Source: Verrucomicrobiota bacterium
Lineage (GTDB): Bacteria; Verrucomicrobiota; Kiritimatiellia; CAIQIC01; JAGNIJ01
Direction: 5' to 3'
DNA length: 41,515 nt
Assembly: GCA_018823105.1 (NCBI GenBank)
Contig: JAHJJH010000162.1
Coordinates: forward strand, 1 to 41,515
Each line of letters begins with the position of its first letter. The first letter of the stretch is position 1. This document shows positions 7,156 through 41,515 of the stretch, one piece after another. Made by a program: the position numbers and the translations under genes. A model generated the notes under the pieces. The model saw only the letters and a program-made list of their open reading frames with translations. It searched no databases and was not told where the DNA came from.

Positions 7156-7628
7156 AAGTCGTGAAAGTCGCCTTGTGCGCTTTGCTCATAGGCTCCTTGC
7201 CGACGTGGGCGGGGTACCGCAACATATCCAAGGAATACACTCGCTCTTCTTCGGAATCCACTGTGTCACCCCGCTGGCAAGCTCAGATTATCCGGGCGCA
7301 CGGACAGCGTCTAACCCCTGTGAATCGCGCCGGCCGTATGGATCCCCTTGATGTCGAGGCCCTGGAAGTCGTGGATGTCGTATTAACTCGGGTGGGATTA
7401 CCCGAGGGCGCATCCGTCTATGCTTATGTCGTCAATGGTGGACGTATCAATGGCAGGATTTCTGAAACTCTCGTTGCGGGCAAAGAAGGGCGGATTTCAT
7501 TTGCTTTTCAAGCGGGGAGGTATTTCGGCGACTATCCCGTGGTTTTGCGCCATAACGGGCGGGAAGAGACGCTGATGTTCTGGGTAAAGCAGGCCAAATT
7601 AGCACCGGCAGAGGAGCAGAAGCCATGA
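7152..7628 (+). CDS. Small secreted protein of the RHS operon, unknown function
   Basis: A 158-aa protein with a clear signal peptide (KVVKVALCALLIGSLPTWAG). The mature part looks like a single beta-rich domain: alternating stretches such as LEVVDVVLTRVGLPEG, ASVYAYVVNGGRING and FGDYPVVLRHNGREE suggest an Ig-like or adhesin fold, but I recognise no family. Both ends overlap neighbours by four bases (ATGA at 7152 and 7625), so it is translationally coupled between the TSP3-repeat protein and the RHS protein. It may be a periplasmic helper in assembly or export of the RHS protein. That role is inferred only from position. Confidence 0.75.
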   Translation: MKVVKVALCALLIGSLPTWAGYRNISKEYTRSSSESTVSPRWQAQIIRAHGQRLTPVNRAGRMDPLDVEALEVVDVVLTRVGLPEGASVYAYVVNGGRINGRISETLVAGKEGRISFAFQAGRYFGDYPVVLRHNGREETLMFWVKQAKLAPAEEQKP

Positions 7629-10600
7629 AGCGGCTGGCCCTGCTTATCGGAACAGGGTTCTTGTTTGCGACTGCCGCTCAAGGGGTAACCAATGATCCGC
7701 CCTGTGGTAATCCGATAAAGCAACTGCCCCCGTCCAACTGCACGCATAACGCATCCAGCAATCCTTTTGACGTGTACTCCGGCAGCGTTGGCCGGGAGGT
7801 GATAGACCTGGAGCCGGCGCATTCCGTTGGGACGGCCCCCTTGCGCTTCGCCCGCTACCATGCCAGCCGCTGGGATGTGAATCCTGGATTCGATATCGCC
7901 TTTGAAAAACCCTTTGGCGACGGCGGCAACTGGAGGCATCGCTTCCTGTGGACAGTTCTCGACAACGGCACCAATTCAGCCGGCCAAAAATCCATTCGGA
8001 TCATCTATCCCTATGGCTTTTATGGGAATTTTGCTAAGGCGGACAGCAATGCCACGCATTTGACCTACTTGGCCAGCGTCCATGAGCGGGTGCTTGAAGA
8101 AGGTACCAACTATTTTTTAATCATGCTGGATGGCACCCGGTATCACTTCACTGGATGGACCAACGAGGCCGGGCGTTTTTACCGCATGGAAGGATTCTCC
8201 GATCCCTACTCTAACCAATACCAGTTTGCATACACCGGGGGTCAGTTGACCGAGGTCATCGGTCCCAACACGAATCTTTCACTAGACTTCACTTACACCA
8301 CGCTGACGAATTCCCAGCCGCCGGGTGAAATCCAATTTACCTTTAGCGATAACACGGCCACACAAGTCTTGCTGGCCGGCACTTTCAATAGCTGGTCCGG
8401 CCAGGACATGACCAATAGCGCCGGGCTCTGGTCTTGTGCGGTCACGCTGACTAATGGCATTTATGAGTACAAATTCATCGCGCGTTATGCCGGGCAAACC
8501 AATGATTTCTGGTATAGCGACCCGGACAACCCGCTTTACACCCTTCCCAATTCCAACTCGGTAGCTTTGATTCAGAGTAATGACTGGACCTCTACGTTGC
8601 TGACGTCCGTACAGGGAACCGATACCCGCGTGGTGAGTTATCAGTATGGTCAGATTTGGGGCACAGGCATCGTCCATGTTGTCCTGACCAACGCTTCGTA
8701 TGGAGACGGTACTTGCGCGGCATATACTTACTATCATCCATCCGAGGACTGGGGCCGCCGTCCTTTGCTGAAAACGGCGGACGATCCTATGTATGTTGGG
8801 CCTGCCCGCGCGGTTCGTTACATATATCAGAGCAACAATCTTTATCCCGGCCAGATATATGAGGAGCGCCACTTATTCACGGATCAACTGCTGGCGAGAT
8901 TAGAGATGGATGGCGCCCAACCCTTGTGGCGTCGCGTGACGAAGTCTGACGGGGCGACCGAGGACTTCATTTTCGGCACGAACACGGGGCAGCGCCTGGC
9001 CTACACCAATGCCGTCGGATATTCATACCGTGCTGAATACTACATGGCTGGCGATGCGGAGGGGATGCTTTGGAAGGAATCAGATCCCATGTCCCGCACG
9101 ACCACATACAGCCGAACCTGGGATTTTGGGGCCGTTACCATTGCCTCCAATAACATTTTGGGCGTCCGGCAATATATTTATACCAGCAATGCAGAGCCGT
9201 TCTATTTGAGCGCTGAAATAGATGAGGCCGGCCGAACCAACGCTTATACCCGCGATAGCTGCCATCGAATTACGCGCCACGATTATCCCGATGGGAGCTA
9301 TGAGACATTCACGTACAACGATCACGGCCAGATCCTAACCCATCGCCGCCGTGACGGCGGTGAGTGGAGCTATGAATATGATGAGCGCGGCCGCAAGATT
9401 CTCGAAACCGACCCTGACGATGCGACCACCACCTTCGGGTACGACGACTATAATCGCTTAACCGCCACAACCAATGCTTTGGGCTATGTCACCCGCCAGT
9501 TCAACAACTGGCGTGGGCTGGTGACCAACGTTGTGTATGCTGACGGGACCGAGGAAAAGACCTGGTACGACCTTTATGGACAACCAACGCAACGTCTCGA
9601 CCGGGCTGGAGGTCTTTGGTCGTCGTTCTATGACGAATTGGGATATCTCTCCGTTACCCGTGACCCGCTGGACCACGAAATCAACTACTGTCATGATGTG
9701 GAGAGACGCCTGCTCGCCATCAGCAACGCTGTTGGCTTGGTCATTAGCAACACCTATGATGGAATAGGCCGGAAAGTCCGGGAGACTTATTCTACCGATA
9801 ATACGTATTATGAATGGCACTACGACCCCGACGGCGTCCGCACGCAATTCAATCGCCTCACCATGCCTACCACGTTCACCTATACACCGGAAGGCCGGTT
9901 GCGGAGCGTCATGGATCCTTTGGGCCGTACGATGAGTTATGGTTATGATCTCGCCGGCAACAGAACGCACATCACCAATGCCCTTGGCGATGTCATCATT
10001 CAAACCTATGACCCCGCCGACCGCGTCACCTCTGTTCGGGATTGTTCCGGCGCGGTGGTAAGCAACGTGTACGATGCGGGTGGCCGGATTGTCATCCGAA
10101 CCGATCCCAACGGCATCACAAATGAGTTCATGTACGACGCCGCGGGCCGCTTGCTCTCTAGCTGGCGCGGCGGGTGTCTCCTTCAAAGCAACGCCTACAA
10201 CACCCTCGGATGGCTCACAGCTTCCATGGATGCCAATGTCCTTGCGCGAACCAACACCTACGACGCCGCCGGCCGATTGCTCCGCGTCTATTTGCCCGAC
10301 GACTCATTCTCCGAGAATGTATATTCCAATACTTTCCTGGTTGAAACTGTGGATCGCGCAGGCCGTCAGACCCTCCTCCTGCGAGACGTTATGGGCCGCG
10401 TCACGAACCAGATTGACAACGCCGACCAAACCGTCCATTTCACTTATGATCCCGCCGGCAGCCTGACTCATCTTTGGGATCAGAACGGCAACCTCACCCG
10501 GTTCCTATATGATGCCGAAGGCCGGCAAACGGCGAAAATCTACGCCGATAATTCCCAATATGCGTACTCGTACGACGCCGAAGGTCGCCTTGTTTCCAAA

Positions 10601-12448
10601 CTTGACGCCAAGAGCAAAACCACCGCCTATCAATATGACCCGGTCGGCAACCTGACCAACATTGTTTATGCCTCCGATCCGCCGGTTTCTTTCGCCTACG
10701 ACGCCTTGAACCGGATGATGGGAATGGTGGACGGGATTGGGACCACCCTCTGGACCTATGCCGCCGGGTGCGGCGCCGTCGAATCCGTGGATGGACCTTT
10801 TGCAAACGACACGCTTTATTATGAACACGACCTCGGAAACCGTCTCCTTTCCGTGACCTCCGCGTTCTCCGCGGTTTCTTATTCCTATGATTTCTTTGAT
10901 CGTATTACCAATGTGGTTGCCGGAGACGGGCCGCCCACAGCCCGATATTCATATTTCGCCAACGGCCGCATGCCTTCCGAACTCCTCCGCGCCAACGGCA
11001 CCCGCACCCGCTACGAATACGATCTCCTCAATCGCTTAACCAACCTGGTTCATGAAACCGATGCCAGCGAAGTCCTTGCTTCCTATGCCTATGCTCTCAA
11101 TTCGGCTGATGAACGGACCGCTGTAACAATAGGTGGACCGGGCGCTCCGCGTACAGTCAATTACACCTACGACCCAATCGGCCAACTCATCTCCGCCCAA
11201 TCCGATCAACCCGGCCATTCCTTTGACTGCGCCTATGACCCCGCCGGCAACCCGGTTCTGCAAGACAATAATGGCTTCGTGGTGAACAACACTTTCAATA
11301 CTCTGAACCAGCACACCACCAACGCATGGTCAGGTTCGGTGACAGTATTGGGAACGGTGAACATTACGAACGGAACAGCGGCAGTAAACGGCTATTCCGC
11401 GCAGGTTCTCGCTAATGGAACTTTCGTTGCGACCAACCTGCCGGTTGCATCGGGGAGCAACGCATTTACAGCGATCCTCACCGATCCCTTTGGACGGACC
11501 TCAACGAGCCGTGTTTCTGTGATTGCCCAAAATCGAGTCTTCTCGTACGACCTCAATGGCTGCATGACCAATGACAACCAGTTTGTTTATGTTTTGGACG
11601 ACGCAGATCGGCTCGTTGAAGTCAAAAACTTGTCCGGAGATTCTCTGATGCAGTGCAGATACGACGGACTTGGTCGCAGACGCGAGCGGATTCTATGGGA
11701 AAACGGTGGAGGCAGCACGAATCGATACATCTACGACGGATGGCTGGTGGTGGCAGTCACAGACGGCTCCACGAACATATTGGAGCGCTACGTGCACGGT
11801 ATAGACTTTAGCGGCAGCCGCGAGGGAGCCGGAGGGATTGGCGGTATTTTGGCCTGCGCCGAGGGCGGCCAGTGGAGCTTTTTCCACCATGACGGCAATG
11901 GCAACATAACTTTGGTCACGGATTCCAACCAAAACGTGACGGCCTCTTTTGAATATGGTCCCTTCGGGACACCCCTGATCCAGCGTGGAAGCGGTCAGCC
12001 TCGCTATCGCTTCTCCTCGAAAGAATGGGACGGACCCGTTGGGCTGTACTACTACGGCTACAGATACTACAGCCCAAGCTTAGGGCGGTGGCTCTCGAGA
12101 GATCATGCCGCGGAGTCAGCGGGTGTAAACTTCTATTTAGCGGTAATGAATAATCCGGTTTCATTACTGGATGCATTGGGTTTAATAATCTGGATTCCCC
12201 CTCATGGGGATGTCGGGCACTGCGCAGGCAATCGAGTCTGCCTACCTCCGAATTACGGGTACGACAAATGCACGCCAGGTGATGAGCAACCGGTTGACTC
12301 TCCGTACGATGTCACATGTGACGATTGTAAAACAATGACTTGTCAAGATTACAAAACATGCTGGGAAATAGAATTTTGCTGCTATGAGGTCAAGGTTACG
12401 GTTACTGCGTGGCTTCCTGGGCCAACTCGGTGTGGGGACTGCCAATGA
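7625..12448 (+). CDS. Secreted RHS/YD-repeat protein with embedded CBM48-like domain and Cys-rich C-terminal tip
   Basis: 1607 aa. A signal peptide (residues 1-20, LALLIGTGFLFATAAQG) is followed by an N-terminal RHS-type region (FDVYSGSVGREVIDL). At about residues 233-315 lies an early-Ig/glycogen-recognition module (VLLAGTFNSWSG, GIYEYKFIARY, DPDNP). Then come many YD repeats (YDAAGRLL, YDPAGNL), an Ig-like segment near 1230-1290, and the RHS-associated core (PRYRFSSKEWDG to LGRWLSRD). The core ends in LDALGL, where related proteins usually have DPxGL. The last 87 residues form a unique tip with 11 cysteines and no family I recognise. RHS proteins build a shell that carries a variable tip. 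The signal peptide and cysteines argue for Sec export and disulfides. It is coupled by ATGA to genes on both sides. Confidence 0.9.
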   Translation: MKRLALLIGTGFLFATAAQGVTNDPPCGNPIKQLPPSNCTHNASSNPFDVYSGSVGREVIDLEPAHSVGTAPLRFARYHASRWDVNPGFDIAFEKPFGDGGNWRHRFLWTVLDNGTNSAGQKSIRIIYPYGFYGNFAKADSNATHLTYLASVHERVLEEGTNYFLIMLDGTRYHFTGWTNEAGRFYRMEGFSDPYSNQYQFAYTGGQLTEVIGPNTNLSLDFTYTTLTNSQPPGEIQFTFSDNTATQVLLAGTFNSWSGQDMTNSAGLWSCAVTLTNGIYEYKFIARYAGQTNDFWYSDPDNPLYTLPNSNSVALIQSNDWTSTLLTSVQGTDTRVVSYQYGQIWGTGIVHVVLTNASYGDGTCAAYTYYHPSEDWGRRPLLKTADDPMYVGPARAVRYIYQSNNLYPGQIYEERHLFTDQLLARLEMDGAQPLWRRVTKSDGATEDFIFGTNTGQRLAYTNAVGYSYRAEYYMAGDAEGMLWKESDPMSRTTTYSRTWDFGAVTIASNNILGVRQYIYTSNAEPFYLSAEIDEAGRTNAYTRDSCHRITRHDYPDGSYETFTYNDHGQILTHRRRDGGEWSYEYDERGRKILETDPDDATTTFGYDDYNRLTATTNALGYVTRQFNNWRGLVTNVVYADGTEEKTWYDLYGQPTQRLDRAGGLWSSFYDELGYLSVTRDPLDHEINYCHDVERRLLAISNAVGLVISNTYDGIGRKVRETYSTDNTYYEWHYDPDGVRTQFNRLTMPTTFTYTPEGRLRSVMDPLGRTMSYGYDLAGNRTHITNALGDVIIQTYDPADRVTSVRDCSGAVVSNVYDAGGRIVIRTDPNGITNEFMYDAAGRLLSSWRGGCLLQSNAYNTLGWLTASMDANVLARTNTYDAAGRLLRVYLPDDSFSENVYSNTFLVETVDRAGRQTLLLRDVMGRVTNQIDNADQTVHFTYDPAGSLTHLWDQNGNLTRFLYDAEGRQTAKIYADNSQYAYSYDAEGRLVSKLDAKSKTTAYQYDPVGNLTNIVYASDPPVSFAYDALNRMMGMVDGIGTTLWTYAAGCGAVESVDGPFANDTLYYEHDLGNRLLSVTSAFSAVSYSYDFFDRITNVVAGDGPPTARYSYFANGRMPSELLRANGTRTRYEYDLLNRLTNLVHETDASEVLASYAYALNSADERTAVTIGGPGAPRTVNYTYDPIGQLISAQSDQPGHSFDCAYDPAGNPVLQDNNGFVVNNTFNTLNQHTTNAWSGSVTVLGTVNITNGTAAVNGYSAQVLANGTFVATNLPVASGSNAFTAILTDPFGRTSTSRVSVIAQNRVFSYDLNGCMTNDNQFVYVLDDADRLVEVKNLSGDSLMQCRYDGLGRRRERILWENGGGSTNRYIYDGWLVVAVTDGSTNILERYVHGIDFSGSREGAGGIGGILACAEGGQWSFFHHDGNGNITLVTDSNQNVTASFEYGPFGTPLIQRGSGQPRYRFSSKEWDGPVGLYYYGYRYYSPSLGRWLSRDHAAESAGVNFYLAVMNNPVSLLDALGLIIWIPPHGDVGHCAGNRVCLPPNYGYDKCTPGDEQPVDSPYDVTCDDCKTMTCQDYKTCWEIEFCCYEVKVTVTAWLPGPTRCGDCQ

Positions 12449-13455: not shown

Positions 13456-14517
13456 TTGAAGACCAACATCTACACCGCCCTACGCACGGACCCCTTCGGC
13501 CGCGTCGCCACTAGCGCCGTCTCCGTGGTCGCCCAAAATCGGAGTTACGGCTACGATGCCAATGGAAACATGACCAACGACGGCCAATTTGCATACGCAT
13601 GGGACGACTCCGATCGTTTAACAGAAGTTCGCAAAGGCGACGAAGTGGTGATGACCTGCCGCTATGACGGCCTCGGCCGCCGGAGAGAAAGAATTGTAGC
13701 CAACGGCGTTGACGGTGGCCCTTCGACCAACCGCTACATCTACAACGGCTGGCTCGTAACCACCATCTTTGATGGCTCGACCAACGTTCTCGAAACCTAT
13801 ACCCATGGCCCCGACCTCTCCGGCACAGTCGGCGGCGCGGGAGGGATTGGTGGCATTTTAAGTTGCAGCAGCGGTTTTGTACGCCGCTTTTTCCATTTCG
13901 ATGGAAATGGAAACGTCATTATAATCACCGACACCAACCAAGCCGTGGCCGCTACTATCGAGTTTGGGCCCTTCGGCACGCTTCTAGCCCACTCCGGCAA
14001 CTATCAACCGCGATATCGGTTCTCCTCAAAGGAATGGGATGAATCAACCTCTTTGTACTACTACGGCCACAGATTTTATTCCCCAGTATTGGGTCGTTGG
14101 CTCAATCGCGACCAAATTGGAGAATCAAAAGCCTTGGACCTTTACAGATTTTGTTTTAATAGCACGCCCATTCGAATTGATCCTCTTGGATTAGAGGACG
14201 TGCTTGTAGAGTCTATCTGGTACGAGCGTCGTTGCATTGAACTGACCTGCTGGCTTGTCGTTAACTGTGGCATCGATCCGTGGCCTTGTGTTATTCCCAA
14301 TCCAATTTACGGCGACTTGGCTCCACATTTGTGCCCATGGTGGCCGACGGAGGAGAAAGGCGTTCGAAACAAGTATGCAAGTTTCAAATGTCCTGAGTAT
14401 ATAGATTCTCCTCGACCAATTACAAGGTGGAGTAATAGAGACATCCAATGGAGCGAATGGCAGGTGTGCTACGACTATGAAGTTGTTTTCAAATATAATT
14501 ATCGAGAGAAAAAGTGA
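13456..14517 (+). CDS. Orphan RHS core with alternative Cys-rich tip (spare C-terminal cassette)
   Basis: 353 codons open from a TTG that directly follows the previous stop (TAATTG). There is no signal peptide and no ribosome site. The first 245 residues repeat the end of the main RHS protein almost motif for motif: TDPFGR, YDGLGRRRERI, TNRYIY, GGAGGIGGIL, PRYRFSSKEWD, LGRWLNRDQ. They begin exactly inside the Ig-like segment of the main protein and end in an intact IDPLGL. After that junction comes a different tip of 107 aa with 7 cysteines and many tryptophans, unlike the first tip. By eye the two cores differ at roughly a third of bases, so this is not a fresh duplication. It is most likely a stored tip usable by recombination, and may be poorly translated where it is. 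Confidence 0.8.
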   Translation: MKTNIYTALRTDPFGRVATSAVSVVAQNRSYGYDANGNMTNDGQFAYAWDDSDRLTEVRKGDEVVMTCRYDGLGRRRERIVANGVDGGPSTNRYIYNGWLVTTIFDGSTNVLETYTHGPDLSGTVGGAGGIGGILSCSSGFVRRFFHFDGNGNVIIITDTNQAVAATIEFGPFGTLLAHSGNYQPRYRFSSKEWDESTSLYYYGHRFYSPVLGRWLNRDQIGESKALDLYRFCFNSTPIRIDPLGLEDVLVESIWYERRCIELTCWLVVNCGIDPWPCVIPNPIYGDLAPHLCPWWPTEEKGVRNKYASFKCPEYIDSPRPITRWSNRDIQWSEWQVCYDYEVVFKYNYREKK

Positions 14518-26416: not shown

Positions 26417-26662
26417 ATGAGGACTACGCTTACGATAGACGACGACGTGCTGGACAAAGCACGATCCCTTGCAGAGAAGCTCCGCGCGCCCTTCCGCCGG
26501 GTAGTCAACGAGGCGCTTCGCGCGGGATTGCCAGCGGTCGAGAAGCCGCCCGCCCATCGGCCCTTTCACACCAAGCCCCGCAAGCTCGGGTTAAGAGCCG
26601 GCCGGAATCTGGACAACATCCAGGAACTGCTTGCGCAAATTGAAGGCGAGGCCCACCGGTGA
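26417..26662 (+). CDS. vapB: VapB-type ribbon-helix-helix antitoxin
   Basis: 81 aa. The N-terminus MRTTLTIDDDVLDKARSLAEK is a ribbon-helix-helix DNA-binding domain. The C-terminal tail (RPFHTKPRKLGLRAG and NIQELLAQIEGE) is the flexible part that wraps the toxin. It should bind VapC and repress its own promoter through the dyad at 26376-26391. There is no ribosome site, consistent with a leaderless start. Its end overlaps the toxin start (GTGA). Confidence 0.9.
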   Translation: MRTTLTIDDDVLDKARSLAEKLRAPFRRVVNEALRAGLPAVEKPPAHRPFHTKPRKLGLRAGRNLDNIQELLAQIEGEAHR

Positions 26663-27090
26663 TCCTGGTGGATGCCAACCTCCTGCTGTATGCCGAAGAC
26701 CAGTTGAGCCGTCGTCATGCGGCGGCGCGGGAGTGGTGGGATAACCAGTTGTCTGGAAAAACACCCGTGTGTCTTTGCTGGACAGTAGTGGGCGCCTATA
26801 TCCGTATCGGGACCAATCCCCGCGTCTTCGAACACCCCCTGTCGCTCGATCAGGCCCTCGCTCGCGTGCAAAGCTGGCTGGACCAGCCATGTACGCGCAT
26901 CGTGCTGCCGACCGAGCGACACTGGATCGTGTTCCGGAAGATGATGACCGAGGGACAAGCGGTCGCCAACCTTGTCAGCGACGCCCATCTCGCCGCGTTG
27001 GCCGTCGAACATGGCTGCGAACTGATGTCCACCGACGCCGACTTCTCGCGCTTCCCGGGCGTCAAGTGGACCAATCCGCTGGGTTACTAG
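26659..27090 (+). CDS. vapC: VapC-type PIN-domain ribonuclease toxin
   Basis: 143 aa from GTG 26659, overlapping vapB. The PIN fold shows MILVDANLLLYAED (first Asp), the helix around VVGAYIRIGTNPRVF, NLVSDAHLAALAVEHG and STDADFSRFPG with the remaining acidic residues, ending WTNPLG. This is the TA-system VapC family seen in many soil and aquatic bacteria; these toxins cleave tRNA or rRNA when freed from VapB. The Glu that some PIN toxins have in the third helix is not evident, as in other members of this subfamily that I recall. Confidence 0.92.
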   Translation: MILVDANLLLYAEDQLSRRHAAAREWWDNQLSGKTPVCLCWTVVGAYIRIGTNPRVFEHPLSLDQALARVQSWLDQPCTRIVLPTERHWIVFRKMMTEGQAVANLVSDAHLAALAVEHGCELMSTDADFSRFPGVKWTNPLGY

Positions 27091-27181: not shown

Positions 27182-27218
27182 TGAAATATGCCATTCTGCA
27201 ATCCTGCAAGGACTGACC
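27182..27218 (+). repeat. Left 37-bp inverted repeat
   Basis: Contains ATGCCATTCTGCAA and ends GGACTGACC. The reverse complement matches 28132-28168 with four mismatches. The repeat can itself fold into an imperfect hairpin (TTCTGCA with TGCAAGGA). The rest of the 267-base gap 27091-27357 shows no other feature. Confidence 0.7.
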
Positions 27219-28131: not shown

Positions 28132-28168
28132 GGTCATTCCTTGCAAGTTTGCAGAATGGCATGTTTCA
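28132..28168 (-). repeat. Right 37-bp inverted repeat
   Basis: Contains TTGCAGAATGGCAT and begins GGTCATTCC. It pairs with the left copy at 27182-27218 in inverted orientation. It lies between the secreted-protein gene and the end of ade, so it may also fold at the 3' end of both transcripts. Confidence 0.7.
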
Positions 28169-37021: not shown

Positions 37022-38563
37022 TCACCGTGCCGACTTGAGATACACTTCGAGACGGCCATCGAACCCGCCAAGATCAACCACCTGCCGGGATTGCAACTGG
37101 AGTGAAGGGTCAAGAGGTCCGATGCGCAACGGATTAACGAATACGAGCCGACCGCCTGGCTTAAGCACCGTGGCGGCGACGGTAAAAAAATCCGCGAACA
37201 GGCCGCGCATGTCGGGGATGCGAATACGTCTTCCCATGGGCGGGTTGGTGATGATGAGGGTGATGCTATCCGGGCCCAGGCCCTCGACCGCGGCAAAGTC
37301 GCGGAAGTCACAGCAGGTGAACTTCGATTGAATGGACTTCACCTTCGCGACGGAAAAGTTGTCCCTGGCAATGGCAATGGCCTCCGGGCTCACATCCGTT
37401 CCGTAAACGCTTTGCACGCCGCCCAGCAGCGCTCGTTCGACAAGTTCCAAGCCTGATCCGCAAAAAGGGTCCCAGACTATCTCCTCCTCAACCTTTCCGG
37501 CCAGGCGGGCCATGCAAGCGGCCAGCGGAGGATGGGAGGCGGCCGCGATATCCTGTCGGCGATAATAAAAACGCGGATCGGGCGCCAGCCTCGGACGCAA
37601 TTCAACCGAGCTTCCGCGCCCTGCCGGGTGAATGTCGATCGCCCAGGGAGCAAGCCGGGCGTCGTTGAGAATGTCTGGACACAGGGCATAGGCCCGGTTG
37701 GCCACGAGACGCACCGCCCCCCTCTGGTGGCCCTTGGAAATAAATTCCAGGCGATAGCGGATCGAGCCTTCCGTGAAAGTGGAAAGAAGTTCCCGCGATA
37801 AGGGCGATGTAATGGTTGCCGCCAAAGCTTCAATGGACTCCGCCGCGTTGGTGCTCCGAACGGTGCCCAGAACGAAGTTAACGGTGCCGAAACAACGGAG
37901 CGTATACAGGTCGGCCACGGAAAAGGGAACCGCCGGCGTGATCGCGACCAACCCGCGGCGGACCTCGGCGATGCGGAATCGGCCCTGCGGCCCCATGCGC
38001 TCCTTCACCTCGTCACGGACAATCTTTTCCAACCCCCTGCGACAGCGCAAATGGATCCGCAAACGGGTGAACCGGGAGAGGGTTCTGTCCATTCGGATTT
38101 TACTTGGCCTTTGACTGCGGGCGACACTGGCTTTCACCTTTTGCTCGGTTTGCGGAAGAAATCCGCGGCCCCCGTCCACGACTTCCAGCGTGGCCGGCCC
38201 GCCGATTTTATCCAGAGCCTGGCCCAGGGATTTCTGCTCGCGCTCGACCACGGTCGTCCGCAGCAAGGAAAGCAGTTCCGCTTCCTCGCCCGGACCGGCG
38301 CCGATCTTGGGCAGTGCTGTAATGGCGTAGCGTCGTATCTTCTCGCAAGGATCGCGCAGCAAGCCCACAAGCCACAACCTCACCTCGGCCCTCTGTTCCG
38401 CCGTGCCGGAGGCGGCAAAGACCACGCCCACCGCGCGAATGACCGCCACCCTTTCCATCCGCTCCTTGGCAGTGGCTTTATTGAACCGTGCCACCTCGAC
38501 CTTCCACAACTGGCCGCACGACAGGACGCGCAACTGACGATAAAAGTCTTTGTCGGTTTTCAT
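37022..38563 (-). CDS. HEAT-repeat / THUMP / RNA methyltransferase fusion protein
   Basis: 513 aa from ATG 38563, which overlaps the GH127 stop (ATGA); the track start at 39163 is a run-back. Residues 1 to about 130 look like HEAT repeats (RLWLVGLLRDPCEKIRRYAI, LPKIGAG, SLGQALDKIGG). Residues about 165-300 are THUMP-like, binding RNA. The last 200 residues are a Rossmann SAM methyltransferase of the UPF0020/Trm11-RlmL group: VWDPFCGSGLELVERAL, YGTDVSPEAIAIARDN and the catalytic motif IITNPPMGRR. The NPPM motif suggests N-methylation of a base, most likely in tRNA or rRNA. The N-terminal HEAT extension is not standard for this family. Confidence 0.82.
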   Translation of the reverse strand: MKTDKDFYRQLRVLSCGQLWKVEVARFNKATAKERMERVAVIRAVGVVFAASGTAEQRAEVRLWLVGLLRDPCEKIRRYAITALPKIGAGPGEEAELLSLLRTTVVEREQKSLGQALDKIGGPATLEVVDGGRGFLPQTEQKVKASVARSQRPSKIRMDRTLSRFTRLRIHLRCRRGLEKIVRDEVKERMGPQGRFRIAEVRRGLVAITPAVPFSVADLYTLRCFGTVNFVLGTVRSTNAAESIEALAATITSPLSRELLSTFTEGSIRYRLEFISKGHQRGAVRLVANRAYALCPDILNDARLAPWAIDIHPAGRGSSVELRPRLAPDPRFYYRRQDIAAASHPPLAACMARLAGKVEEEIVWDPFCGSGLELVERALLGGVQSVYGTDVSPEAIAIARDNFSVAKVKSIQSKFTCCDFRDFAAVEGLGPDSITLIITNPPMGRRIRIPDMRGLFADFFTVAATVLKPGGRLVFVNPLRIGPLDPSLQLQSRQVVDLGGFDGRLEVYLKSAR

Positions 38564-40518
38564 AGCGTCGGGAAGATCGCGATCCGCAGCCGCGTGCAAC
38601 CGTACGGGACCAGCGTGATCCACTCCACCTTCCGCGAGGCTTTTTCCAGGGCGCGCGCGGTCGGCAGCGGCGGGGTCATCATGAAATCGCCGCGCCGCGT
38701 CCCGTGCCACTTGTCGCGGAGGACCTTCAGCCGGCGCGCGCGCCAGCCCGGGACGCGCACGGCGGGCACGCGCAGGACCACCGGCGGCGGCCGGCCGTCC
38801 CAGGGAAACGAGTTTTCCAATGATTGGAAAAATGCCGCGTTTTTTTTCCAATGATTGGAAACTTTGGATAGCGCGTAATTCCACGGCCCCGCGGGGCGGA
38901 TATTCCACGCCGGAAACTTGTCGCTGGAACGCGGGTCCCGCCGGTCGCGGCGGCGGTGCTCGGGGATGGGCAGGGCGAATAGCAACGGGCCGCGACGTAC
39001 GCACACGCCGCCGCCGGACTGCCGCTCGAGCCGGATGTCCATGGGCAGATCGAGTTCCAGCCGGTCGCCATCGCGGAAACGCCGCCGCATTTCGACGAAC
39101 GCTCCCCGACGGAGCGAGCCCACGAACTTCTCTCCATTGATGAGCAACCGGGAACTCCGACACCAGCCGGGGATCCGTAGAAAGAGCGAAAACAAGACGG
39201 GCCGCGCGGTTTTTACGACAAATTGGATTTTTTCGGCGAACGGATAATCCGTTCTCTCAACGATGGTTATGGTCGCACCCGACCGTCCGGCGCGGAACGT
39301 GACGGTCGAGGGACCATAAAACGTGGCGGCGATGCCTCCGCCCGGCCGCTCCATCCACATGCGCGCCAAGTAATTCGGCACGATGCGGGTGACGTTGCCC
39401 GGGCAGCATTCGGTAGCCGGGTTGGGGCGATAGGATTTGTGGGCCCAGCCGAATCCGTGTCCGTGGTGGTTCGCGCTCGCGTCGGCCACGATCTGGTTCG
39501 GGCTCGAAAAGTACTGCAACGCCTTGAAGTCCGGCAGCAACGCGCCGGGTGCCGCGTTGAAGACGGTGTTTTCGATCCAGTCCGCGTACGCCGCGTCGCC
39601 GGTGGCCATCAGCAGGTAACCCAGACTCCAGGCGGCGTCGGCAATGACGCAGGTCTCGTGGCCGGCGGTCGGGTCGCGACCCTTGAGATGCTCGGTGGAA
39701 CTGGGCACGCCGTCCGCGAGGACGTGGTCGCGGGCCAGCTTGCGCCAGGCATTCGCAGAGGACCGCAGAAGTTTCCGGTTGCCCGTGTAGAGGAAGAGGA
39801 TGGCTGGCAGCTTGGATAGCTCGCAGTAGTTCACGCCATGGTCCCGGGCGGTCGCTCGCGAGAGCATGCTGCGCAAGCTGGTCGCCGCATCCGGATGCCG
39901 GCGATTGAATCCGGCCAGGCTTTGGCGGGCGAGGGCGAGCAGGCGGCGGTCGCCGGTCTGCGCATAGAGCCAGAGCATGATTTCTACGTTGCACAGATTG
40001 CGCCCGTCGCGGAACTCCGCGGTGCCGGAGAGATAGTGGCGCGTCAACCGGCGGAGGATCGTGCGCTGGTGCTTCGCGGGGAGGTGAGTCATCAGCGCGC
40101 GGAAGAGGACGGCGTGCGGCCAGCGCTCGGCGCGGCCTTCGGGCGTGATTTTCTTGAGGGCGGCGGGGCCAAGATAGCCGTCGGCGTCGGGATGATCGAG
40201 CACGTGGTCGAGCTGGCGGAATGCTTTGCGCAAGAGGCTGTTATCGCGCAGAAGCTGGCCGCAGCGGGCCATGCCGTCAATCCAGTAGGCGACCTGTTCA
40301 TAGGGCCACCAGGCGCTACCGGGCCCGCCCCGGCGGCGAATGGGATCGAGCAGCCAGCCGCCGGTATCGAAAGGATACCCGGCGTGTTCGAGATGACCCG
40401 TCAACCCGTCGCGCTGGCGCTCGAGCCAGCGGTGCAGCCAGCCGGACGGCCGGATCGCGGCGAGGTTCAACTCGCGGAATACACCGTGATAGCGGGCGGG
40501 CTTCGAGCGTGGTTTCAT
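38560..40518 (-). CDS. Glycoside hydrolase family 127-like (DUF1680), beta-L-arabinofuranosidase type
   Basis: About 652 aa from ATG 40518; an ATG 63 bases farther upstream is an alternative, and the longer track start is unlikely. An (alpha/alpha)6-barrel with FDTGGWLLDPI, WPYEQVAYWIDGMARC, the DGVPSSTEHLKG region and the zinc/nucleophile cysteines HETC and ATECCPGNVTR as in GH127. A C-terminal beta-sandwich follows (WNYAL, PPPVVLRVPAVRVPGW). There is no signal peptide, so it acts inside the cell or is exported in another way. Between WNYAL and PWDG the frame is occupied by a palindromic repeat. It is coupled to the methyltransferase by ATGA, an odd pairing. Confidence 0.85.
   Translation of the reverse strand: MKPRSKPARYHGVFRELNLAAIRPSGWLHRWLERQRDGLTGHLEHAGYPFDTGGWLLDPIRRRGGPGSAWWPYEQVAYWIDGMARCGQLLRDNSLLRKAFRQLDHVLDHPDADGYLGPAALKKITPEGRAERWPHAVLFRALMTHLPAKHQRTILRRLTRHYLSGTAEFRDGRNLCNVEIMLWLYAQTGDRRLLALARQSLAGFNRRHPDAATSLRSMLSRATARDHGVNYCELSKLPAILFLYTGNRKLLRSSANAWRKLARDHVLADGVPSSTEHLKGRDPTAGHETCVIADAAWSLGYLLMATGDAAYADWIENTVFNAAPGALLPDFKALQYFSSPNQIVADASANHHGHGFGWAHKSYRPNPATECCPGNVTRIVPNYLARMWMERPGGGIAATFYGPSTVTFRAGRSGATITIVERTDYPFAEKIQFVVKTARPVLFSLFLRIPGWCRSSRLLINGEKFVGSLRRGAFVEMRRRFRDGDRLELDLPMDIRLERQSGGGVCVRRGPLLFALPIPEHRRRDRRDPRSSDKFPAWNIRPAGPWNYALSKVSNHWKKNAAFFQSLENSFPWDGRPPPVVLRVPAVRVPGWRARRLKVLRDKWHGTRRGDFMMTPPLPTARALEKASRKVEWITLVPYGCTRLRIAIFPTL
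38814..38861. repeat. Tandem palindromes TTTCCAATGATTGGAAA inside GH127
   Basis: Two exact copies of the near-perfect 17-base palindrome TTTCCAATGATTGGAAA (38814-38830 and 38845-38861), 31 bases apart, with a T/A-rich spacer. On the minus strand they are translated in frame as SNHWKKNAAFFQSLENS. From memory, palindromes of this type are abundant intergenic repeats in Kiritimatiellota genomes. Finding it inside a gene is unusual. Confidence 0.75.
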
Positions 40519-40654: not shown

Positions 40655-41515
40655 TTATCGTGCAGGGCCCGTCTCACGCTCAACGACGACACCATGCCCG
40701 CGGCCGGGGCTATGGCCTTTGCCTGTGGTCTTGAGCCTCCTTTCTTCCAAAAGATCCAGCGGACTTTGCGCCGGGTTGCGCAAATCTTTCACCACGTGTG
40801 TGTACACCATGGTGGTCTCCACGCTGGAATGACCCAGGTATTCCTGGATTTCCCGCAGATCCACGCCGTTCAGCAGCAGGTGGGTGGCGAAACTGTGCCG
40901 TAGCGTGTGCACGGAGACGGGTTTATAAATCCCGGCCTGCCCTACGGCCGCTTTCACGGCCCGCTGGATCAGCGCATCGCATACATGGTGTCGCCGCACT
41001 TGCCCGCCCCGTGGGTCCACCGACAGTTTTTCGGAGGGAAAAACCCACTGCCAGCCCCATTCGGCCCCAGCCCTGGGAAACTTCGTCGCCAACGCATCCG
41101 GCAGCCATACCCCACCCACCCCCGCCTTCTGATCCTGCTCGTACATGCGACGGACCTCCGCCAGGTGCGCCTGCAGATCTGGGCACACCCGTTCGGCCAG
41201 CAATGTGGAGCGATCTTTGTCGCCTTTTCCCCCTCGAACAAACAACAATCGGTTCTCAAAATCCACGTCCTTCACACGCAGCCGGCAGCACTCCATGACG
41301 CGCAGTCCGCCCCCGTAGATCAACCCGGCCATCAGCCGCGGCGTACCGGTCATGAAATTCAGCAGCTGGCCTGTTTCCTCGACGGTCAGCACCACCGGAA
41401 GATGTCGCCCCCGTTTCGCGCGCAGCCCCTGCTCCATCTCGCCCAGGTCGATGTTCAATACCTCGCGGCACATGAAAAGGATCGCATTGAATGCCTGGTT
41501 CTGTGTCGAGGCCGA
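40655..41515 (-). CDS. intI: Integron-type integrase (tyrosine recombinase), N-terminus beyond window
   Basis: 287 codons in the window, open at the right edge; the visible frame starts SASTQNQAFNAILFMCREVL, which matches the arm-domain text of integron integrases, so the track start at 41473 is internal. The catalytic residues are the Arg in GGGLRVMECCRLR, the HTLRHSFATHLL His-Arg, LGHSSVETTM and the Tyr of VYTHV. The IntI-specific extra patch is present (ALATKFPRAGAEWGWQWVFP, then SVDPRGGQVRRHH). Such enzymes insert and excise gene cassettes at attI/attC sites. In the usual arrangement attI and the cassette array lie upstream of intI, that is, to the right of this window. No attC-like site is evident to the left. 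Confidence 0.92.
   Translation of the reverse strand, partial: SASTQNQAFNAILFMCREVLNIDLGEMEQGLRAKRGRHLPVVLTVEETGQLLNFMTGTPRLMAGLIYGGGLRVMECCRLRVKDVDFENRLLFVRGGKGDKDRSTLLAERVCPDLQAHLAEVRRMYEQDQKAGVGGVWLPDALATKFPRAGAEWGWQWVFPSEKLSVDPRGGQVRRHHVCDALIQRAVKAAVGQAGIYKPVSVHTLRHSFATHLLLNGVDLREIQEYLGHSSVETTMVYTHVVKDLRNPAQSPLDLLEERRLKTTGKGHSPGRGHGVVVERETGPAR

Follow-up and report, generated by a model that had tools for sequence, protein, structure and literature searches.

We found that two palindromic sites inside a glycoside hydrolase gene are one small cluster of a family of near-identical sites, present in tens to about a thousand copies in many genomes of the class Kiritimatiellae. Neighbouring sites are spaced by whole numbers of helical turns. 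The sites are best explained as maintained binding sites, evolved in place, for an unidentified dimeric DNA-binding protein that contacts its neighbours along one face of the DNA and most likely organises the chromosome. We put the probability of this explanation at roughly two in three. The protein was not found.

Results

The starting point was a 41,515-nt stretch of DNA (the window), a contig of a 3.56 Mb, 356-contig genome of a Verrucomicrobiota bacterium (GCA_018823105.1, contig JAHJJH010000162.1). Two exact TTTCCAATGATTGGAAA copies (TTTCCAA-TGA-TTGGAAA) lie at 38814-38830 and 38845-38861, 31 bp or three helical turns from start to start. They are separated by a 14-bp spacer (38831-38844) with an A-rich start, a GC middle and a T-rich end. 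A scan allowing up to 2 mismatches found only these two places in the window, each on both strands, against a mean expectation of 0.00, and none of 100 dinucleotide shuffles reached this number. Both copies lie within a minus-strand ORF (38560-40518, with a possible start as far up as 40695) encoding a GH127-like beta-L-arabinofuranosidase, which matches the Pfam GH127 catalytic and middle domains (PF07944 and PF20736; E 1e-18 and 6e-20). They encode SNHWKKNAAFFQSLENS between WNYAL and PWDG. The observation made in the first-pass annotation, an exact in-frame pair at this position, is thus confirmed. The two copies are read in different frames (SNHWK and FQSLEN), indicating that what is repeated is DNA and not peptide. 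The annotation also described the repeat as open on both strands. With a TGA centre, however, one of the six frames has a stop (TTC CAA TGA), so the unit is open in five.

Some other features of the window were noted in passing. A tyrosine recombinase of the phage integrase family (40655-41473) lies at the contig end, next to the GH127 gene. A large RHS-repeat protein (7625-12448) is followed by a shorter RHS-repeat ORF (13456-14517), and the two share a 50-bp stretch (12045-12094 and 14054-14103, 76%). Inverted repeats of 37 bp (27182-27218 and 28132-28168), 89% complementary, flank about 0.9 kb with an ORF of no clear family, possibly a small mobile element. A PIN-domain protein (26659-27090) is a possible toxin of a toxin-antitoxin pair, although no antitoxin was sought. 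For the palindromic sites themselves, a search against Rfam gave only a sub-threshold chance match (mir-3747, 21.5 bits against a gathering score of 63, E 0.15).

The whole genome was then searched for the motif. It holds 43 exact TTTCCAATSATTGGAAA sites and none of the reversed control, about 96 TTCCAATGNTTGGAA cores, and 90 sites of the form TTTCCAA-N3-TTGGAAA with a free centre. We identified 34 arrays of 1-5 copies with start-to-start spacings of 31 or 32 bp. The spacers are 14-15 nt long and nearly all different, with A-rich and T-rich ends and a GC-rich middle. A home-made gene finder placed about a quarter of the arrays inside genes and the rest between genes.

With a free centre, the roughly 97 sampled genomes of the same class include many with tens to hundreds of sites (1010, 712, 452, 407, 336, 331, 325 and so on) and many with none, including sister genera of motif-rich ones. 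About 190 genomes elsewhere in the phylum have 0 or 1 site, as chance predicts. In a partial collection-wide scan for spaced pairs, the records examined were all labelled Kiritimatiellae (or Kiritimatiellaeota, Pontiellaceae), Lentisphaerae, Verrucomicrobia or Spartobacteria MAGs, or unnamed bacteria. Two viral contigs also carry an array (L229, 3429-3505; L230, 10588-10653). They match transposase and DNA-transposition proteins and, in one, a terminase small subunit, so they look like Mu-like phages. In L230 the array starts right at the stop codon of the gene with the terminase small-subunit match.

To test whether the pair had been inserted into the gene, GH127 homologues from the class were aligned, a comparison the first-pass annotation had itself proposed. 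Homologues outside the genus have a variable loop of about 17-22 residues, mostly 21, and no palindrome. The window gene also has 21 residues there. The orthologue in the same-genus genome, G002, has four palindromes at the same place and is about 20 residues longer. Here the palindromes therefore occupy the loop without lengthening it, and the difference between the two species is a frame-keeping pair of units (63 bp). No GH127 match was found in the two other, incomplete, genomes of the family. In a TrpF gene carrying three sites, the protein still matches the whole PRAI family, and against solved structures its array region aligns with only a few extra residues. The annotation had named as its own disproof homologues that lack the palindrome in DNA yet encode the same residues. 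The homologues outside the genus lack both, so this was not observed.

The interpretation offered by that annotation is only partly supported. The palindrome is a Kiritimatiellae-wide element, it sits in frame in a variable GH127 loop, and a count in coding and non-coding DNA, which had also been suggested, found it in both. By contrast, the claims that it was inserted, and that it may be shaped to enter genes without breaking them, are not supported by the loop length, by the unrelated surroundings of single sites in another genome, which share no flanks or boundaries, or by the retention of arrays at orthologous places. This fits sites that evolved in place and are maintained by selection and not an element that jumps into genes.

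Conservation was measured against G002 with the palindromes masked. About 21 arrays of the window's genome (G000) have an array at the orthologous place in G002, where flanking DNA is roughly 70-89% identical. In eight array pairs of equal copy number, 327 of 336 arm positions are identical (97.3%), whilst the spacer interior is 56% and the flanks 62% identical (70% beside genic arrays). The arm figure is somewhat inflated, since G002 loci were chosen for having palindromes. The 3-bp centres are the same in 8 cases, exact reverse complements in 8 and different in 12 (e.g. the locus pairs L044/L263 and L061/L249), the second group appearing as if the centre had been inverted in place. Three orthologous places are empty in G002 and one or two hold decayed arrays, including the counterpart of array L035, so not every site is essential.

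Arrays are kept between genera in a few cases. Deep conservation is clear at three loci: in-frame arrays at one position of a sugar nucleotidyltransferase (5, 2 and 6 copies in three genomes), in-frame arrays at one position of an OppB-like permease in several genomes, and arrays just before the start of pheS in four. A general test for enrichment of the same neighbour genes across genera was not significant (Fisher p 0.39).

Individual sites were studied in a relative, G083, represented by a single 3.88 Mb contig. In 1.235 Mb sampled mainly at fixed intervals we found 182 exact TTCCAA-N3-TTGGAA cores, where well below one is expected. All 89 other arm permutations, and every other centre length from 0 to 12, gave 0 or 1. 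Cores with one mismatch numbered 222 against 1.3 for control arms. Sites are mostly single, and their flanks are unrelated apart from a T/A preference in the base or two on either side. Of the 182 cores, 120 are inside genes, in all three frames, where 87% of the DNA is coding. Sites are thus enriched outside genes (34% of sites in 13% of the DNA), although two thirds are intragenic.

Neighbouring sites in G083 are helically phased. Sites with up to one mismatch cluster, with 84 pairs within 110 bp where 12.6 are expected. Adjacent spacings pile up at 22, 31-32, 42, 52-53, 63, 74, 83-84 and 94 bp. The periodogram peaks at 10.42 bp over all 87 adjacent pairs up to 220 bp. For the 74 adjacent pairs at most 110 bp apart, R is 0.83 at 10.5 bp (Rayleigh p about 1e-22). 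There is no 3-bp periodicity, and the DNA between the paired sites inspected is unique, so duplication does not explain the pattern. The phase is still visible to 220 bp and weakly to 500 bp, and exact sites alone give the same result with 19 pairs (p about 1e-5). Other genomes show their own rules. Spacings are only 31 or 32 bp in G000, a further group uses 22/30/31 combinations, and 22, 30-32, 52-53, 62 and 83 bp are found among other genomes.

We also checked the position of G083 sites relative to genes and to the origin. Gaps between convergent genes held 14 sites (9.5 expected) and tandem gaps 23 (32.7 expected), whilst divergent gaps were mildly enriched (17 against 11.8). Sites inside genes are spread evenly along them. 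There is thus no overall preference for promoter-bearing gaps or for terminators. Counts per 20 kb showed no trend with distance from the GC-skew origin (Spearman -0.11, p 0.41), an early hint of a gradient towards the origin or terminus having vanished with more sampling. A five-site phased cluster (L304, 6038-6250; about 1.364 Mb in G083) lies at the start of an mnmG/gidA-like gene, not far from the GC-skew switch that marks the likely origin.

Candidate partner proteins were then sought. Motif-rich genomes (e.g. G000, G015, G067, G083 and G092) carry exactly one HTH_ParB match, as do most motif-free genomes, excluding a dedicated ParB/Noc paralogue. Y1 (REP-associated) transposases do not track the motif: one genome (G153) has 105 sites and no Y1_Tnp match, whilst another (G070) has no site and 13 matches. 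Genes flanking the arrays are of mixed, mostly housekeeping function, and no recurrent DNA-binding gene was recognised amongst them; whole proteomes were not profiled. None of six forms of the sequence occurs in the literature searched, and no paper there links Kiritimatiellota with such repeats.

Discussion

Taken together, our results suggest that the pair is one cluster of a genome-wide set of binding sites (TTTCCAA-NSN-TTGGAAA) for a sequence-specific, probably dimeric protein of Kiritimatiellae. The analysis itself establishes the great over-representation of the sites, their distribution amongst genomes and their presence inside and between genes, the conservation of arms whilst centre, spacers and flanks drift, the whole-turn spacing of neighbours, and the appearance of having arisen in place in the one-contig genome sampled. 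The protein, its cooperativity and its architectural role are our inference. In this view, each 17-bp palindrome, with half-sites about one turn apart, binds one dimer with two recognition elements, and neighbouring dimers touch or bridge on the same face of the DNA so that close sites bind cooperatively. Persistence of the phase from two to at least ten turns suggests either a chain of dimers or flexible bridging. Because sites show no promoter or terminator preference and are spread along the chromosome, we favour compaction, looping or anchoring over control of single genes, though this rests on location and phasing only. The absence of the motif from sister genera means that the function is dispensable or uses another sequence there.

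Two alternatives are unlikely, to a similar degree. The palindrome could mark self-DNA for natural transformation and accumulate by biased uptake and recombination, as described for DNA uptake sequences, their dialects and molecular drive (PMC3630211, PMC2397512). Hundreds of copies, the excess of one-mismatch copies, the mostly intragenic location, origin in place and clade restriction with centre dialects would fit. However, helical phasing and ordered arrays of 2-7 sites with clade-specific spacing are not predicted by uptake bias, only tens of arrays occur in this genus, and uptake sequences are not palindromes of this length. Competence genes were not searched for and uptake was not assayed. 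Alternatively, the sites could be operators of a global, cooperatively binding transcription regulator, in line with their palindromic form, phased arrays, enrichment outside genes and position upstream of pheS. Against this stand the two thirds of G083 sites spread evenly inside genes, the intergenic sites not concentrated in promoter-bearing gaps, and the mixed housekeeping neighbours.

A mobile palindromic repeat (a REP/REPIN spread by RAYT, a MITE or an in-frame insert like the Rickettsia palindromic element), which was the reading of the first-pass annotation, is largely refuted. The many near-identical copies, in-frame presence in several proteins and copy-number differences between orthologues in near-multiples of the unit favour it. 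The lack of common flanks, the unchanged GH127 length in this genome, the absence of a RAYT link and the phasing of independent sites across unique DNA speak against it. A CRISPR-like array was considered because of the unique spacers, but these are only 14-15 nt and arrays have at most 7 copies; cas genes were not searched. A mutational by-product, in which template switching at short inverted repeats perfects and flips palindromes without any binding protein, might produce the reverse-complemented centres but cannot explain one fixed arm sequence, the fixed 3-bp centre or the phasing.

Several systems resemble these sites in part. The Noc-binding sites of Bacillus subtilis are also short palindromes scattered over the chromosome and bound by a sequence-specific protein that links the nucleoid to cell architecture (PMC8429893, PMC4331003). 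They differ in sequence, and the sites studied here form phased arrays, have no second ParB-type HTH protein and show no depletion near the terminus. HIP1 and other highly iterated palindromes of cyanobacteria likewise reach very high frequency in a clade (PMC4390886), and our motif shares their strong over-representation in coding and non-coding DNA. HIP1 is 8 bp without a gap, against 17 bp with a free 3-bp centre, and is neither phased nor in ordered arrays; co-occurrence with an orphan DNA methyltransferase was not searched. DNA uptake sequences share the hundreds to thousands of copies arising in place with near-matches and dialects, whilst the sites here are palindromic, phased and clustered. 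Rickettsia palindromic elements and REP/REPIN sequences are repeated palindromes sometimes found in frame inside genes, but no transposable unit was seen here. Plasmid centromeres such as F sopC, which were not compared directly, have tandem palindromic sites at near-integral helical spacing bound by a dimer, at one locus on a plasmid, against tens to about a thousand sites chromosome-wide.

It is possible, though we hold this only tentatively, that Kiritimatiellae possess an undescribed chromosome-organising system, in which a sequence-specific dimer docks at hundreds to thousands of helically phased palindromes, inside as well as between genes, and polymerises or bridges along one face of the DNA with genus-specific spacing rules. 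In this view, genome-wide helical phasing of one long palindrome, strong enough to be read in coding sequence, is a direct footprint of protein-protein contact along chromosomal DNA. It predicts a specific protein and its geometry from sequence alone, in a bacterial class whose nucleoid biology is little studied. It also warns that residues such as FQxLE, FSNxWK and FPxIGK in Kiritimatiellae proteins can be imposed by a DNA code rather than by protein function.
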